Origin: Dactylococcopsis salina PCC 8305
GTDB lineage: Bacteria; Cyanobacteriota; Cyanobacteriia; Cyanobacteriales; Rubidibacteraceae
Length of the DNA stretch: 64,000 bases
Direction of reading: 5' to 3'
Assembly (NCBI RefSeq): GCF_000317615.1
Contig: NC_019780.1
Location: 3,698,722-3,762,721, forward strand
The notes below the pieces were generated by a model, which saw only the letters and a list, made by a program, of their open reading frames with translations, searched no databases and was not told where the DNA came from. Positions 16,503 to 60,491 of the stretch are shown piece by piece. Positions within the stretch are counted from its first letter, which is position 1. Each line of letters starts with the position of its first letter. The translations under genes and the position numbers were made by a program.

Positions 16503-16710
16503 GTTAGGCAAAAGGCAAGAGGCAAAAGGCAAGTTGCCTTAGGCAAAAGGCAAAAGGCAAAAGGCAAGAGGGTTGATTGAGCGGTAGGAGGGGAAGGTTT
16601 TGATGCAAGGTGCGTGACGATTGAACAATCAATGAAATTGCATTTTTACCTGAACTTAATCTCCTCAAATCCCTATTTGGTAAAACTTGCAGCTTCCCAA
16701 CAGCAAACCC
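16503..16710 (-). repeat. Truncated dispersed element related to 33057-33287
   Basis: On the minus strand it starts with GGGTTTGCTG, then carries a block shared with the element at 33057-33287 (GGATTTGAGG, TTCAGGTAAAAATGCAA, CATTGATTGTTCAATC, CACGCACCTTGCATCAAAAC). It ends in TTTTGCC / CTTGCCT heptamers. The far terminal repeat (TTTTTCAGCAACCC) is missing. It lies between the speA start and the first leader module. Confidence 0.75.
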
Positions 16711-16720
16711 TAACTTAAAT

Positions 16721-16921
16721 AAAATTTTTCAGGTCAGATGTTTGTCCACCCAGTGAAGCAAAACTTTGGACTCCCAAGCGAAACCCTGAAAAAAATTTTT
16801 TTGAACTGCTTTTTACTTTTTAAAAGTTTGATTCGGAGTAGGAAGATTTCGCTTTCTGTTCGTTTCTTATTATAGCACACCTTCTTTCGAGAGGACAAGT
16901 CATTGAGAAGCTCGATCGAAT
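16721..16921 (-). repeat. Leader/sRNA-like module, copy A (upstream of speA)
   Basis: About 200 bp, roughly 90 percent identical to 17115-17316 in the same orientation. Read on the minus strand it contains a promoter (TTGTCC, 18 bp, TATAAT) near its start. A leader follows with AAAAGCAGTTCAAAAAA, GGGTTTCGCTTGGGAGTCC and a TGAAAAATTTT tail. No convincing coding sequence is present. It points toward speA, about 300 bp away. It could be a duplicated 5' leader or a small-RNA gene. Confidence 0.6.
16869..16898 (-). promoter_or_regulatory. Sigma70-type promoter in module A
   Basis: Minus-strand TTGTCC (16893-16898) and a perfect TATAAT (16869-16874) separated by 18 bp. The pair is conserved in the second module as TTGTCT and TAGAAT with the same spacing, which supports function. 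Confidence 0.6.
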
Positions 16922-17114
16922 CTTTGAGCGATGGGGAGTGGGACTTCTGAGGAAACGTCTCTAAGAGGTGAGTTTTTACAAAGAGCGTGTGGAACGCTTC
17001 CGTGACACTCACTCCAACGGTTTTTCCTTCCTTATATTCCCTAGCATGGCAACGCGATTAGGGTTAAACCCAATCCCTTCCGAGGTTCAGCTTGATTCTG
17101 GAAAGATTGTTAAT

Positions 17115-17316
17115 AAAATTTTTCAGGCTGAATGTTTGTCCACCCAGTAAAGCAAAACTCTGGACTCCCAAGCGAAACCCTGAGAAAAAATTTTTTGAAC
17201 TGCTTTTTACTTTTGAAAAGTTTTTATTCGGAGTAGGAAGATTTCGCTTTCTGTTCACTTCCTATTCTAGCACACCTTCTTTTGAGAAGACAAGTCATTG
17301 AGAAGCTCGATCGAAT
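17115..17316 (-). repeat. Leader/sRNA-like module, copy B
   Basis: Second copy of the approximately 200-bp module. The AT-rich tail, the GGGTTTCGCTTGGGAGTCC block and the promoter boxes are conserved; scattered substitutions separate the copies. It lies just beyond the hairpin that follows rpmF, so its transcript would be independent of rpmF. The 193 bp between the modules contain no recognisable gene. Confidence 0.6.
17264..17293 (-). promoter_or_regulatory. Sigma70-type promoter in module B
   Basis: Minus-strand TTGTCT (17288-17293), 18-bp spacer, TAGAAT (17264-17269). It corresponds base for base in position to the promoter in module A. Confidence 0.55.
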
Positions 17317-33056: not shown

Positions 33057-33287
33057 GGGTCTGCTGAATAAAGCTGAAAGGTTTACTAAATAAGGATTTG
33101 AGGCGATTCAGTTCAGGTAAAAATGCAAGTTCATTGATTGTTCAATCCTCACGCACCTTGCATCAAAACCTTAAACTCCTACCGACAAATCAACCCTCTT
33201 GCCTTTTGCCTTTTGCCTCTTGCCTTTTGCCTTTTGCCTCTTGCCTCTTGCCTTACTCAACCCACCAATGGACTTTTTCAGCAACCC
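33057..33287. mobile_element. MITE-like element with TIRs and 8-bp target duplication
   Basis: 231 bp. The ends GGGTCTGCTGAATAA and TTTTTCAGCAACCC are inverted repeats. The 8-bp sequence CTACATTA flanks both sides (33049-33056 and 33288-33295), a clear target-site duplication. There is no transposase gene. The interior holds TTTTGCC/CTTGCCT heptamers and a block shared with 16503-16710. The right duplication covers the stop codon of the thioredoxin-domain gene, so the insertion abuts its 3' end. Confidence 0.85.
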
Positions 33288-45522: not shown

Positions 45523-45603
45523 TTCCTTCCTATCACACTTATTTAATTACCGTTGCCATTAAGGTTATTCTCTCACAACAGGAGAGGCAAAAAATAGAAA
45601 GAG

Positions 45604-45987
45604 AGTCAGACATAAGCCGGGTTCTGTTCCCAAGACAAACGCTTGAGGGTAGTTATCTATCTGGGACTCCTGTTACCAGAAGCCTCAAGCGGTACTCCCA
45701 AAACGGAAACTGGTAAAAGACCAACCTTAGTTTCCCTCGACCTTGCTTCCGACTGGGGTTTACCGAGCCAACACCTCTCGATGTTGCTGGTGCGCTCTTA
45801 CCGCACCTTTGCACCCTTACCAAAGAGCCTTAACCAACTCCTTGGCGGTATTTTTCTGTGGCACTGTCCTCACGGTCACCCGCACTGGGCGTTACCCAGC
45901 AGTCTGGTCTTTGGAAGCCCGGACTTTCCTCAATTCTCGGTGTCGGAACACCAGAGAACTGCAACCACCTCGCCAACTCTCTTCCTA
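45604..45987 (-). ncRNA. rnpB: RNase P RNA
   Basis: The minus-strand sequence begins AGAGAGTTGGCGAGGTGG, contains the conserved GAGGAAAGTCCGGGC, a CAGTGCCACAGAAAA segment and a GGTAAACCCC core. It ends in GAACCCGGCTTATG followed by a short T-rich stretch. These are the universal P1-P4 elements of bacterial type A RNase P RNA. It matures tRNA 5' ends. The ends are approximate to within a few bases. The long plus-strand open frames across it are not genes. Confidence 0.95.
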
Positions 45988-50284: not shown

Positions 50285-52601
50285 CCCTTACACCACAGGG
50301 ATTTCCACCCCTGTCCTTCGTGGAAAACTCTCCCCATTCGGAGAATGGCGACGCTGGTAGTAAGTAATGAAACCAGTGGAATGCACGCCCCAAAAGTAAC
50401 GGTTGCTGGTAGGATAGACTGGTTTCCGTGCGAGAAGGAGAATTGGAAGGATGAACATAGTCCAAGCTGATGATTAAACTGCGTGATAGACTGAACAGCC
50501 AAATTATTCCTGATAGGCTGTAACCAAAACGGTAAGAGGGTGGTTTATATTCTGTATTTTGATATAAACGTGGAAACTCATCCCCTCCGCAGAATAGTCA
50601 GCCATCCCAACCAATTCGTATGTTCAATCGATACAACAGGGTAAGCCCTACAGAGTCTTTCGACTGGTCGAGTCGGGAGTAGGGAGGAGGCAACGAACCC
50701 ACAACTCTCTGGAGGGTAGAAGATGAGGCAAAAAGCGAACGCCAGCCTGTAATGGGTTGGATAGGGGTTGAAACATTATCCCTGACCGAAAGGAAAGCAG
50801 ACTTGCCTTTGGTCTTATACGAAAGAGAAAACAACAAGGAAACTAAACGGAGATAGAAGTTAGATGTCAAGCCCTAGTTTGATAAATGGAGTCGATGGAC
50901 AGTTGACCGACTGGAGTCAGATTAACTGGCGAAAAGCTCGGAAGATTGTTAAGAATCTACGTGGTCGTATCTTTCGTGCTAGAAGTCTTGGTAAGTGGAA
51001 GCAACTTCGTCGGTTGCAGAAACTTTTGTTACGAAGCCGTGCTAATTTGCTTTTATCAGTGCGACAAATCACTCAAGTTAATCTAGGTAAGCGTACCGCA
51101 GGGGTAGATAAGGAGGTACTAAATACCCCAGACGAGCGAGTGAAACTTGTGAACAGTTGGGAAATGCCAAAGGCTAACCCGACACGACGAGTTTACCTAC
51201 CCAAACCTAACGGGAAGAAACGTCCCCTCGGAATCCCTACCGTTCGGGATAGAGTCGCACAAGCAATAATTAAAAATATACTAGAACCCGAATGGGAAGC
51301 GGTATTTGAGCCTAACTCCTATGGGTTTAGATGCGGGCGGAGTTGTCACGATGCCATTGAACAATGTTTTATTAAGTTCAGGGCTGGAAATAAAGGTGGA
51401 CACCTCTGGGTTCTAGACGCTGACATTAAGGGCTTCTTCGACAACATTGCCCATGAATCCATCCTGACAGCAATTGAGTCTATACCACGTGGAGACTTAA
51501 TTGAAGGATGGTTAAAAGCTGGTTACCTCGATAAGGGTGTACTGAATCCGACCGTCATGGGAACACCACAAGGTGGAGTGATTAGCCCACTGTTAGCTAA
51601 CATTGGGTTACACGGGCTGGAGGACTTCATCAAGTCAGTCAACCCTAAGCTCGGAGTCATTCGTTACGCGGATGATTTCGTGGTCACTTCAAAGGATAAG
51701 GAAAGCCTAGAACACATACTTGACCAGATAAAGCAGTGGATGTTAGAACGAGGTCTGGAAATCAGCGCGGAGAAGACGAGAATTGTCTCGATGGAAGAAG
51801 GTTTTGACTTTCTTGGGTTCAACTTACGTCACTACGGTGGCAAATTACTGATTAAGCCCCAGAAAAAGAAGGTTCTCACCTTCTGTAAAAAGATTGGGGA
51901 AACTCTAGATAATATGAAAGCTCGCACTCAGGAAGATGTCATTAAAGCCCTAAATCCACTTCTTCGAGGTTTTGCTAACTACTACAGAGGAGTGGTTAGT
52001 AAAGAAACCTTTAACTATATCTCAAATCGAGTATGGCACTACCTCTTTAATTGGGCGTTACGGCGGCACCCGAATAAATCAAAAAAGTGGGTCTTCCACC
52101 GCTACTTTAAGCGTTTAAGAGGGAGAAACTGCTTTGCGTGTTACGGCACTGGTCGCGGAGGTAAGGAAAAATTCTTTATGCTCCACGATATCAGTAGCAC
52201 CCCTATCATCAGGCACGTAAAAGTTAAAGGGACAGCAAGCCCTGATGACCCCTCACTTCGGGATTACTGGCAAAATCGAAGCCTCAAGATAGGAAAACAA
52301 AAATGGGCAAAAGGTTCTAAATACGAGCAAGTAGCCAAGATGCAAGAGCATAAATGTCCTGTCTGTGGTGATAGCCTTTATAACGGAGAAGAAATCGAGA
52401 CTCACCATATAGTACCTGTGAAAGACGGTGGCTCAGACGACGCTGAGAATCTAGTCCACTTACACAAAGCGTGTCATAAGCAGGTACACAGTTCAAAAAC
52501 CAAGACGAAGGCTGGAAGTAAGGCTTGAGCCGTATGATGGGAAACTGTCACGTACGGTTCTTAGGGGAGGGGAGAGAGGCGACTCTCGAACCTTACCCGA
52601 T
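50251..52601 (+). mobile_element. Group II intron 1 (in the grxC/tadA overlap)
   Basis: 2351 bp. The 5' end is GTGCGACC (GUGYG consensus). Domain V lies at 52527-52560 (GAGCCGTATG, GGGAAACTGTC, CGTACGGTTC), overlapping the stop codon of the encoded protein. Domain VI follows, and the 3' end reads CCTTACCCGAT. The maturase gene lies in domain IV. Excising exactly this segment joins GAATGC to AGTGGGATGAG, which restores both grxC and tadA. The intron is in the sense orientation and looks intact. Confidence 0.92.
50864..52528 (+). CDS. ltrA: Group II intron reverse transcriptase/maturase (intron 1)
   Basis: 554 aa multifunctional protein. The N-terminal RT0 region is followed by RT motifs including GIPTVRDRVAQAIIKN, DADIKGFFDNI and the catalytic YADD (about residue 266). 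The maturase X domain follows, then a C-terminal HNH endonuclease with CPVC, ETHHIVPVKDGG and HKACH (about 500-545). All key residues are present, so splicing and mobility are plausible. The protein is about half as similar to the second intron's enzyme, as judged by eye, so the two introns are distinct lineages. Confidence 0.95.
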   Translation: MSSPSLINGVDGQLTDWSQINWRKARKIVKNLRGRIFRARSLGKWKQLRRLQKLLLRSRANLLLSVRQITQVNLGKRTAGVDKEVLNTPDERVKLVNSWEMPKANPTRRVYLPKPNGKKRPLGIPTVRDRVAQAIIKNILEPEWEAVFEPNSYGFRCGRSCHDAIEQCFIKFRAGNKGGHLWVLDADIKGFFDNIAHESILTAIESIPRGDLIEGWLKAGYLDKGVLNPTVMGTPQGGVISPLLANIGLHGLEDFIKSVNPKLGVIRYADDFVVTSKDKESLEHILDQIKQWMLERGLEISAEKTRIVSMEEGFDFLGFNLRHYGGKLLIKPQKKKVLTFCKKIGETLDNMKARTQEDVIKALNPLLRGFANYYRGVVSKETFNYISNRVWHYLFNWALRRHPNKSKKWVFHRYFKRLRGRNCFACYGTGRGGKEKFFMLHDISSTPIIRHVKVKGTASPDDPSLRDYWQNRSLKIGKQKWAKGSKYEQVAKMQEHKCPVCGDSLYNGEEIETHHIVPVKDGGSDDAENLVHLHKACHKQVHSSKTKTKAGSKA

Positions 52602-53131
52602 AGTGGGATGAGCGTATTTATCAAGAACATTGTCGTTGGATGGAGTACGCCCTCCAACTTGCCACAGAAGCAGGAGAAGCAGGGGAAATCCCCGTTGGTG
52701 CGGTAATTGTTGATGATCACGGGGCGATCGTGGGGGAAGGAAATAACCGTAAAGAGCGCGATCGTCTTCCCACCGCTCATGCAGAAATGATCGCCATTAA
52801 TCAAGCAGCCCAACGACGGGGGAATTGGCATCTTAATGATCTGAGGCTTTATGTGACCCTTGAACCTTGTCCCATGTGTAGTGGGGCAATTATTCAGGCT
52901 CGTTTAGGAACATTGGTTTATGGTGCAGACGATCCGAAAACTGGTGCGGTGCGAAGTGTTTTAAATCTTCCTGATAGCGCCGCATCTAATCATCATCTGA
53001 CAGTTATTGGTGGCGTTTTAAATCAGGCTTGTCGTCAGCAATTAAAACAGTGGTTTGCAGAAAAAAGACCTAAAATACAATCTATAGCGCTACGCGCTAG
53101 GCAAGAGGCAAAAGGCAAGAGGCAAAAGTGA
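52602..53131 (+). CDS. tadA: tRNA-specific adenosine deaminase, split by intron 1
   Basis: Exon 2 of TadA. Zinc and catalytic motifs are HAEMIAINQ and PCPMCSGA. It converts the wobble adenosine of tRNA-Arg(ACG) to inosine and is essential in bacteria. Exon 1 is only four bases (ATGC, 50247-50250). The spliced start reads MQWDERIYQEHCRWMEYAL. An in-frame TAG at 52601-52603 shows that the unspliced frame cannot be read from upstream; an internal ATG at 52640 might give a product lacking 13 residues. The last 16 or so residues are encoded by a dispersed repeat (53083-53187). Confidence 0.9.
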
Positions 53132-57676: not shown

Positions 57677-57829
57677 GGATATAATCCTTACGCTCTGGAA
57701 GTTTTAAGTCTCCTCGCCCACCTAACTCAAGATGTCCCTTCTTAAGGCAACCCTCCAACAGGTTTTAGAGAGGTACAAACTGGAGAAGAATTTGTACGTC
57801 CGTGCCAGAGTTAGGCTCAATGGGCTATT
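57677..57829 (-). ncRNA. Predicted omega-RNA scaffold of IsrB, 3' part
   Basis: 153 nt between the intron and the isrB start codon, highly structured by eye. A long-range stem pairs CCTAACTC (57808-57815, minus strand) with GAGTTAGG (57721-57728), extended by GCCCA/TGGGC. Inside is a hairpin GTACAAA/TTTGTAC (57773-57797). IscB/IsrB omega-RNAs are encoded at this position. The expected 5' part, including the guide, lies beyond the intron at 60492 to about 60575, so the RNA gene appears interrupted. This is inference from family rules and pairing. Confidence 0.55.
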
Positions 57830-60491
57830 GTTACCTAAGCCAGAAGGTCGCCCTCCTGACTCGGCTTCAGAACGGTACGTGAAACTTTCGCTTCATACCG
57901 CTCCTCTTCAAACTACGCTGTACTAACAGAACTTCCCTGCGTAGTTTCCGATTTACGACCTTTCTTTGTTTTCTTTTGGGCTTTCTTTTGCCCTTTGTTA
58001 TTCATTTGTCGTTGTCGGTCTTCAGCAGTTTTCTGATGGTGACAATGACGATGAAGTAATTGTAAATTCTTGTAATGGTCTTTGCCCCCTTCAGCTTTAG
58101 GGACGATGTGGTCAACCTCCACTACATCTTCATCCTTGATGTAAAGCCCACAACGAGTGCATCTGCCTTTCTGACGCTTCATCAGTGTAGCAACCCGTTT
58201 AGATACACCAGGGTATTCTCCCCGACGTTTACTCCAATACCGCCAATCTCCATCGTAAGGAGACCTTGTACCCTCGATTTTTATATGTCTTTCAACTGGT
58301 GTCCATGCGTGTTTCCACAATTCGTGCGTACCCGCAACAGGAGAATTTGGTACATCAGAAGGAGTTGAGAAGACCCATTTGTCTTTTCTATCCTCTTTAG
58401 TTAAATCTTTCTCCTTAGTCAAATGAAAGTATCTCTCTTCACACCATTTGAGGGTTTTGTTAGGATGACGGCGTTTAATCCAGCGACGTAATTTGTTATA
58501 AACTAAATGGTCTATGTGTTTGAATGTCTCTTTTGAGCAGACTGTTTTGTGATAGTTGCACCATCCTATAATAATCGGATTTAGCTTCTCAATGATTACC
58601 TCTTGGGATTTACCTCTCATTGAGTCCAACACTTCCACAATCTTTTCATAGTGTGTTTTGACACTTTTGTCACTAGGTTTGATTATTGTCTTGAATCCGA
58701 GAAGATGACCACTACCATTCTCTCCAGAATGTTTCTTCCCGACCTTATATTGTCGGACGTTCCATCCTAGAAAATCGAACCCTGCTTTCGTTTCATCCGT
58801 ATCATGCAAGGTGTGGCAAATTCTCGTCTTGCTCTCGCTTAATTCTAAGCCTAAGTCTTGTAACCATTGTTCAATCAGCATTTTTGCTTGTTGGATGATG
58901 GATTTATCCTTGTGGAGAACAACAAAATCATCTGCATACCTTACGATGGAGATACTCCGACGGTTTACCGACTTTCCTCCTCTTCCTTTCCAGGTTTCAG
59001 CCCATTGTTTTATGTACTCCTCCAGTCCATGCAGGGCGATGTTTGCCAATAGAGGACTTATCACCCCCCCTTGTGGTGTTCCCTCATTTGTTGGCATCCA
59101 ATCACCTCTATCCAAGACCCCCGATTTCAACCAAGCTCGAATTTGTCGAGCCATAGTCGGGGCTGTATTAAGTTTTTGTAAGAGAACCTCGTGGTCAATA
59201 CGGTCAAAGCATTTAGAGATATCTGCATCTAAAACCCATTTGGATTTTTGTTTAATAGTCCCATATATTGCTTCTCTCGCATCATGGCAAGAGCGTCCTG
59301 GTCTAAATCCGTACGAATTCGGCTCAAATTTTGCTTCCCATTCTGGCTCTATAGCCAATTTGAGAAGTGCCTGCCTCGCACGGTCTTCCATTACTGGAAT
59401 ACCCAAGCCACGTTTATCTTTGCGACCTGGTTTCGGAATCCAGACCCGTCTTAAGGATTTACCCTTCCCTGTAAGGGTCAGGTTTTCAGCAAGGCTCAAT
59501 CGTTGTTTAGGACTTAGGCTTTTTACACCATCTATCCCTGCGGTATTCTTACCCTGGTTATCCTGCGAAATGCGCCGTACAGCTAAGAGTTTAGCGCACC
59601 AAGACCTCAACAATAATCTTTGGAGTTTGTGAACTTTAGCCACGTCACCACTTAGAGAAGCTCGATAAATCCGTTTTTGGAGCTTAAACACCCGTATTTC
59701 AACCTCCTTCCAGTCAATCTGACTCCACTCCGTCTCTGCCATGAGATTAAACCCAAAGCCTAACCAGAGCATTAAAAAGGTCTTTGTCCGAGCATCACAT
59801 TTATACTTCATTGAGTTCATAACTTTACCCTACTTCACTTATTATCTTCGTAATCTAAAGTGGCTACGTCTGCTTATCCTCCTTGTTAAAGAAGGCTTTT
59901 GCTTCTTAGCCAATCCTGCCCTCGTCCTACCTGACAAATGAGCCAGAGATTGCATCCCGACAGACTACTTGAGAAATCGACCTTCCCCAAGAGTATGAAC
60001 GAAGGTTATTTCGTTTCTGATTTCCATTCATTGAGACTTTAGCCCCCTACTATCCTCCGAGTAAATCTATAGGTGTGATATAAGCTACTTGATACTTATA
60101 TCATTTTACTCTGGTCTTATTTCGACCCTTGCGACAGCCTTTACGCAAGTTCCTAATTACGAAGGTTCAAGCATAGGTTTGTTGACTAGACATAGCCTCT
60201 TGCTAGGGATTTACCAGTTTAGGCTTCCAGCAGTGACCCCATTTAACCCTGCTTCATCCTCAAGTGGTCAACTCTGTAGATGAGGGTTACGCTGTCCTCT
60301 CACACCCTGAGAGGGATGGGCTTGAATTAACGGGTTAGACCCTACCTATTTCTTAGCTGTTGCTCCACAGGCTCTCACCAACATGAAAATCAAATTGTCA
60401 AGGTTTTATACCCATAGGGTTTAACCAAGCTCTGGCTTATACCTTAGAGTTCGAGGGAACTAAGCGCGATTTCACCAGAAACGAATCGCAC
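57830..60491 (-). mobile_element. Group II intron 2 (between the VWA gene and isrB)
   Basis: About 2660 bp, minus strand. The 5' end is GTGCGATTCG (GUGYG consensus) at 60491. Domain V lies at 57870-57903 (GAGCGGTATG, GCGAAAG, CACGTACCGTTC). The 3' end is near 57830 (GGTAAC), uncertain by a base or so. About 670 nt of ribozyme precede the maturase gene. Its orientation is the same as isrB and the upstream VWA gene, so splicing from their transcript is possible. Confidence 0.9.
57913..59742 (-). CDS. ltrA: Group II intron reverse transcriptase/maturase (intron 2)
   Basis: 609 aa using the start MAETEWSQIDW; the frame is open to 59820. It has RT motifs including GIPVMEDRARQALLKL, DADISKCFDRIDH and the catalytic YADD in SIVRYADDFVVLH, a maturase X domain, and a C-terminal HNH endonuclease with CTRC, EVDHIVPKAEGG and HRHCHH. 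The last 40 residues are Lys/Gln-rich and low-complexity. All key motifs are intact, so the intron may be active. Confidence 0.95.
   Translation of the reverse strand: MAETEWSQIDWKEVEIRVFKLQKRIYRASLSGDVAKVHKLQRLLLRSWCAKLLAVRRISQDNQGKNTAGIDGVKSLSPKQRLSLAENLTLTGKGKSLRRVWIPKPGRKDKRGLGIPVMEDRARQALLKLAIEPEWEAKFEPNSYGFRPGRSCHDAREAIYGTIKQKSKWVLDADISKCFDRIDHEVLLQKLNTAPTMARQIRAWLKSGVLDRGDWMPTNEGTPQGGVISPLLANIALHGLEEYIKQWAETWKGRGGKSVNRRSISIVRYADDFVVLHKDKSIIQQAKMLIEQWLQDLGLELSESKTRICHTLHDTDETKAGFDFLGWNVRQYKVGKKHSGENGSGHLLGFKTIIKPSDKSVKTHYEKIVEVLDSMRGKSQEVIIEKLNPIIIGWCNYHKTVCSKETFKHIDHLVYNKLRRWIKRRHPNKTLKWCEERYFHLTKEKDLTKEDRKDKWVFSTPSDVPNSPVAGTHELWKHAWTPVERHIKIEGTRSPYDGDWRYWSKRRGEYPGVSKRVATLMKRQKGRCTRCGLYIKDEDVVEVDHIVPKAEGGKDHYKNLQLLHRHCHHQKTAEDRQRQMNNKGQKKAQKKTKKGRKSETTQGSSVSTA

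Follow-up and report, generated by a model that had tools for sequence, protein, structure and literature searches.

Rhizobial families and LhrC of Listeria are multi-copy trans-acting small RNAs, encoded by tandem or dispersed paralogues that share a conserved exposed motif. Among the cyanobacterial RNAs, PsrR1 (SyR1) is a trans-acting small RNA encoded by a single-copy gene, and Yfr1 carries the motif ACUCCUCACAC. For the Yfr2 RNAs, the passages of PMC2662882 that deal with them describe own mapped start sites for some members and a strong promoter for Yfr2a. Here we describe two sequence modules, A and B, located upstream of speA in Dactylococcopsis salina PCC 8305, within the window (the whole stretch of 64,000 nucleotides that was analyzed). 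We consider it probable that they belong, as tandem paralogues, to a multi-copy family of cyanobacterial small RNAs, free-standing and acting in trans through a conserved tail. Comparison of sequences gives strong support to the part of this reading in which the modules would be RNA genes. The family, which has no match in Rfam, is new as such but ordinary as a kind.

The twin modules between rpmF and speA

The preliminary description of this region reported two modules about 90% identical and 394 bp apart, and both the repeat search and BLAST bore this out. With one copy as query, BLAST gave 92% identity over 205 bases, on the minus strand and at that distance. The repeat search returned two overlapping blocks (D1/D2) with a register spacing of 394-395, the RNA-bearing part (16718-16829/17112-17223, 92% identity) and the promoter-side part (16790-16921/17185-17316, 84% identity). 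Modules A and B lie between rpmF (L32) and the arginine decarboxylase gene speA, all of them on the minus strand (Table 1). The sequence GGGTTTCGCTTGGGAGTCC was found in both, and what had been called their T-rich end corresponds to AATTTTATT. A scan detected no intrinsic terminator at the tail end of A or of B; such a terminator is common in trans-encoded small RNAs, yet it is no strict requirement.

The same promoter boxes at the same 18-bp spacing were likewise confirmed on the minus strand, TTGTCC-18-TATAAT in A (16898..16869) and TTGTCT-18-TAGAAT in B (17293..17264), with the TG of an extended -10 in both. The 1.2 kb region holds 3 promoter-like sites, compared with 1.7 (sd 1.3) in shuffled sequences. 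Taken alone, the boxes of A and B are not beyond chance, and their weight comes only through the enrichment observed in the family. The modules were also said to contain no protein frame, and indeed none is common to A and B, the ORFs that run over them being different in the two copies.

Table 1. Predicted features of modules A and B, in window coordinates.
Feature	Position	Strand	Basis
Module A, whole repeated unit (promoter and RNA)	16718..16921	-	Repeats D1/D2; model R2 match 16718-16773, 72.7 bits
Module A, -35 box TTGTCC	16893..16898	-	Promoter scan
Module A, -10 box TATAAT, TG extension, 18-bp spacing	16869..16874	-	Promoter scan; family enrichment 64/69
Module A, 5' part of predicted RNA	16772..16862	-	Inferred (start ~7 nt after -10); alignment
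Module A, conserved hairpin (5-bp stem, 1x3 internal loop, 3-bp stem)	16744..16771	-	Covariation
Module A, conserved tail AAACAUCUGACCUGAAAAAUUUUAUU, presumed single-stranded RNA end	16718..16743	-	R2 match; tail conservation
Module B, whole repeated unit	17112..17316	-	Repeats, BLAST; model R2 match 17112-17167, 77.3 bits
Module B, -35 box TTGTCT	17288..17293	-	Promoter scan
Module B, -10 box TAGAAT, TG extension, 18-bp spacing	17264..17269	-	Promoter scan
Module B, 5' part of predicted RNA	17166..17257	-	Start inferred; alignment
Module B, conserved hairpin	17138..17165	-	Covariation
Module B, conserved tail AAACAUUCAGCCUGAAAAAUUUUAUU	17112..17137	-	R2 match; tail conservation

Other features of the window were recorded. 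Positions 52525-52601 and 57810-57906 match group II introns, and an RNase P RNA is located at 45598-45980. The heptamer GGCAARA forms short tandem arrays at 16504-16582, 33194-33252 and 53100-53127. Its presence near A, C and D made it a candidate partner, which was discarded because the pattern has 664 matches genome-wide and is therefore not specific.

Copies, hairpin, tail and predicted promoters of the family

A DNA search of the 3,781,008-base contig revealed a third copy, C, at 1.09 Mb of the same genome, 82% identical over 225 bases. Among 40 genomes, the DNA search found matches only in this genome and in G001, a member of the same genus, where the match covers 51 bases. In G001 the copy follows rpmF, as A and B do, and a TnpB-type gene stands in between; in G003, which also belongs to the genus of the window, a diverged copy is placed directly after rpmF. 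A covariance model, R1, was built from these five sequences (A, B, C and the G001 and G003 copies) and, at E<=0.05, had matches in 5 of 60 genomes. The copies found with it differ in stem sequence and keep the complementarity (GTCCA/TGGAC, GGCTA/TAGCC, GGTTG/CAACC, GGTCG/CGACC and GCTCA/TGAGC).

Of the 291 genomes sampled from the order, 18 were matched by model R3 at E<=1e-4; the matches number 112 in total and 1 to 15 per carrier. A homologue search in related genomes had been suggested in the preliminary description, and copies were indeed present in all six genomes of the window's genus. The other carriers, which extend the range to several families, were seven genomes of genus g13 (7-15 matches each), G013 (10 matches), and G014, G030, G035 and G225 with single matches. 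The window's own genome has ten R3 matches, one of which (2331307) is inside a coding frame, leaving nine credible copies. Six of the nine form three tandem pairs: A/B, two copies near 0.827 Mb and two near 0.149 Mb. The tail was also found in named records from Prochloron, Spirulina CS-785/01, Phormidium OSCR, a Halothece MAG and "Cyanobacteria bacterium SW_9_44_58"; an alphaproteobacterial record matching the tail is devoid of the hairpin. Model R2, run over 386 genomes of the phylum, matched 49 at E<=0.01, many of them weakly and in the AT-rich family f47; in the sample inspected these f47 matches look like chance, and they were left out of the counts.

At the gathering score, Rfam 15 assigned no family to modules A and B, nor to 20 loci with copies. 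Lowering the threshold produced only chance-level matches to eukaryotic families; with A, B, D1 and D2 as queries, a cutoff of E=10 brought up no cyanobacterial family. Searches of the open-licence PMC literature showed no report of this RNA family among the papers listed.

The 69 distinct copies analyzed below come from 72 places in the fetched loci, out of the 112 R3 matches in 18 genomes; the matches outside this set are above all those of G085, G157, G170 and G193, and for a few of the 69 the only hit came from R2 or from the tail. We dropped L101 and L064, which are in coding frames, and L065 by its likeness to those two; L120, L124 and L125, where the hairpin is absent; and also G209 (L087), L118 (its RNA equals that of L198), the weak f47 matches, G225 and G003:C97.

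The hairpin plan, taken from a MAFFT alignment of eight copies (A6), comprises a 5-bp stem, a 1x3 internal loop and a 3-bp stem. In A6, which unlike the model-fitted alignments A7 and A8 was not fitted to the structure, all 64 cells are paired and seven of the eight pairs have changed on both sides, so that the structural covariation that the preliminary description proposed to check is present. The covariation score was 0.821, versus a mean of 0.316 in shuffled alignments (0/500) and at most 0.170 in slid versions. With 31 model-aligned copies, in an alignment that leans to the structure, 96.5% of the cells are paired and 83 cells have changed on both sides (0/500). Stems that close at the first C of the tail were also counted without an alignment. 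One of 5 pairs is present in 46 of the 69 copies, against an average of 8.0 and a highest count of 15 in shuffles and 0-29 in slid controls; for one of 4 pairs the numbers are 56 copies, an average of 23 and a highest count of 31 in shuffles, and 0-50 in slid controls. The control that gives 50 is slid by +12, where in g13 the AAGC/AGGC of the tail could pair with that same strand upstream and so form an alternative fold. The 4-pair test was failed by 13 copies, ten of them from G013, in which no more than a 3-pair stem is seen by eye.

Minimum-energy folds were not significantly stable for A (z -0.40), B (-0.65) and the G001 copy (-1.37), and C gave -2.24. The single-sequence folds of A and B are ordinary in energy and bring the leader into pairing with the hairpin, so that the hairpin of the two modules rests on comparison and not on energy. 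Ten g13 copies yielded a consensus fold of 20 pairs, 7 of them changed on both sides, including five in a 5' hairpin. None was obtained from seven other copies with diverse 5' parts, and a common 5' hairpin is therefore claimed only for genus g13. The hairpin of the family has an asymmetric internal loop or a bulge, in A, B and most copies of the window's genus the 1x3 loop (one base facing three). The units thus combine a conserved secondary structure with the lack of a protein frame, as expected for a trans-encoded small RNA.

Directly 3' of the hairpin lies the tail, CAAACAUCUAnSCUGnnCAAUUUUA. Across the 69 copies the information content is 1.4-2.0 bits at positions 0-9, 12 and 14, and about 1.0-1.9 bits at positions 18-24, the conservation at positions 0-9 (and in a few loci at 11-14) being partly by construction, as the anchor expression fixes or restricts them and leaves 15-39 free. 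Conservation extends to about +28 and is 0.18 bits or less from +29 on, and this sharp drop past the tail suggests that the RNA ends near it.

By a single criterion, set after many of the sequences had been viewed, a promoter-like sequence was identified within 180 bases upstream, on the RNA strand, in 64 of the 69 distinct copies. The controls gave 13/69 on the opposite strand, 4-14/67 in six flanking windows on either strand, and 21.6% in shuffles. In the 43 copies scored, a few of them with doubtful box assignments, the distance from the -10 to the hairpin end ranges from ~31 to ~150 nt; the 5' part is accordingly variable, and the RNA of the shortest copies would start with the hairpin.

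Two arrangements in G013 were observed besides. The copies at L219 1676 and 2927 have nearly identical RNA and different promoters, which would fit homogenisation of the RNA part or its copying without the promoter. At L218, ~1561-1617, two convergent copies stand tail-to-tail with their tails a few bases apart, and their RNA ends would be largely complementary.

Two candidate roles for the tail were tried and rejected on the sequences inspected. A small protein was suggested by a frame over the tail (TGWTN..) that is alike in B, C, G001 and G003; by eye, a TAG just upstream closes this frame in C and in the G001 copy, and in A it ends early. Pairing of the tail with translation starts, for which its complement reads AGG-n-UAG-AUG-UUU-G, was not borne out: of the 11 own-genome sites inspected among the matches listed, none is convincing as a translation start. 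By eye, there is no fit either at the cpcB starts of G000, G001, G017 and G035.

Genomic positions and alternative explanations

We found 27 cross-species pairs of copies with both flanks homologous, distributed over nine loci: 26 pairs at eight g13 loci, and one locus in the genus of the window, where further loci share one flank. In 33 locus pairs, chosen by hand and not independent (16 of the 27 two-flank pairs, 16 one-flank pairs and one tied by rpmF only), mean identity was 88% in the hairpin, 89% in the tail, 80% in the 5' part, 69% just downstream and 63% upstream. The proposal in the preliminary description that the modules are paralogous small RNAs gains support from this conservation, which centres on the RNA unit and comes from loci that are mostly orthologous, as well as from the further copies in the same genome and in relatives, their promoter-like sequences and the compensatory changes.

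Position also bears on a rival reading, in which the units are small dispersing MITE-like DNA elements whose promoter and structured RNA are part of the element, spread by insertion and without a cellular job. Copy C is found in a 546-bp gap between the genes for RNase III and an AI-2E transporter, and in four of the five genomes searched (G001, G002, G003 and G005) these two genes almost touch and there is no copy; in the fifth, G004, the transporter is not shown at the locus. Judged from these sequences, copy C looks like an insertion. Similarly, G005 does not have the unit that G001 carries before a 92-aa gene, nor G004 the one that G003 carries after rpmF, absences that could also be losses. 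Patchy distribution across the sampled genomes and the end of the homology of A, B and C at the tail likewise favor an element. On the other hand, both flanks are kept in the 27 cross-species pairs, the RNA unit is more conserved than its surroundings, and the compensatory stem changes would be unneeded by an inert DNA element. No terminal inverted repeats were noticed by eye at the copies. Among the minority of loci with ORFs listed, a linked transposase was present only in G001, where a TnpB-type gene (424 aa, OrfB_IS605; L008 1529-2803) is placed on the opposite strand between rpmF and the small-RNA gene. That the modules are fragments of a known insertion sequence, which by the preliminary description would have refuted its reading, was borne out neither by these loci nor by the plasmid (72,556) and phage (50,697) records, none of which was matched by copy B; the aspect of copy C is, however, that of an insertion. 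Orthologous copies keep their place, but the site of copy C is empty in four relatives, so copies have also been gained or lost. On balance we regard a MITE-like element as unlikely.

Another candidate role, like that of the Csr/Rsm RNAs, is that of a decoy: hairpin and tail would together form the binding site for one RNA-binding protein, which would be titrated according to the copy number. The multiple copies would suit it, as would a hairpin with an asymmetric loop or bulge joined directly to a conserved tail, a design whose presence in genomes of several families suggests one conserved partner. However, the authors of PMC2662882 could not identify homologues of RsmA/RsmE in cyanobacteria, according to the portion of that work concerned with them, and we consider such a decoy an unlikely role.

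A dispersing element of a different sort would be a self-dispersing small-RNA gene whose promoter and structured RNA are copied to new sites, such as that of copy C, with selection keeping the RNA at the old ones. We think this rather improbable; if true, it would represent a bacterial RNA family midway between a regulator and a SINE-like element, with ~15 copies in one genome.

A duplicated cis-acting speA leader sensing polyamines, the other proposal of the preliminary description, was rejected as very improbable: A and B are upstream of the arginine decarboxylase gene and on its strand, but between A and the start of speA there are nearly 300 bp, in which heptamer repeats occur, copy C and the other-species copies inspected are not beside speA (which does not follow the G001 and G003 copies downstream of rpmF), and the genes that come after the other copies are diverse, in many cases lying on the opposite strand.

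In the reading that we favor, small RNAs acting in trans, each unit would be a complete gene with a sigma-70-type promoter (often with an extended -10), a 5' part of ~0-110 nt, the hairpin and the ~25-nt tail. Transcription would start ~7 nt after the -10, and the RNA would end near the tail, close to AAUUUUAUU. The hairpin would give the RNA stability and expose the tail, either to pair with target RNA(s) or to be bound by a protein; having multiple copies would raise the dose and allow separate inputs at the promoters. A promoter, a hairpin and a conserved exposed tail, with nothing conserved thereafter, is by analogy the design of trans-acting small RNAs.

Comparison with described small RNAs

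The family would provide a testable regulator candidate in halophilic and mat-forming cyanobacteria beyond the model strains, and the covariance model together with the tail sequence suffices to seek it in any genome. The copies that remain in place and those present in a single species make it a good case for how small-RNA genes multiply.

Among the known systems, the rhizobial families and LhrC resemble it in having paralogues, both tandem and dispersed, that share an exposed conserved motif, a likeness of organization for which no sequence relation is claimed. PsrR1 is set apart, by description, as a single-copy gene versus the multi-copy family found here. Yfr1 differs in its motif, for which a search of the window tolerating 1 mismatch gave 0 hits. 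Still, Yfr1 and Yfr10 are likewise short RNAs of cyanobacteria whose pairing site is a conserved single-stranded motif, as the relevant part of PMC6778093 presents them. The Yfr2-type RNAs are alike in being multi-copy, in having neighbors that are not conserved and in joining a conserved unpaired stretch to a stem-loop (PMC2662882, in its account of these RNAs). Compared by the description given there, the conserved stretch of Yfr2 is unpaired and 5', with a 12-nt loop on a bulged stem, whereas that of the family described here is a 3' tail.
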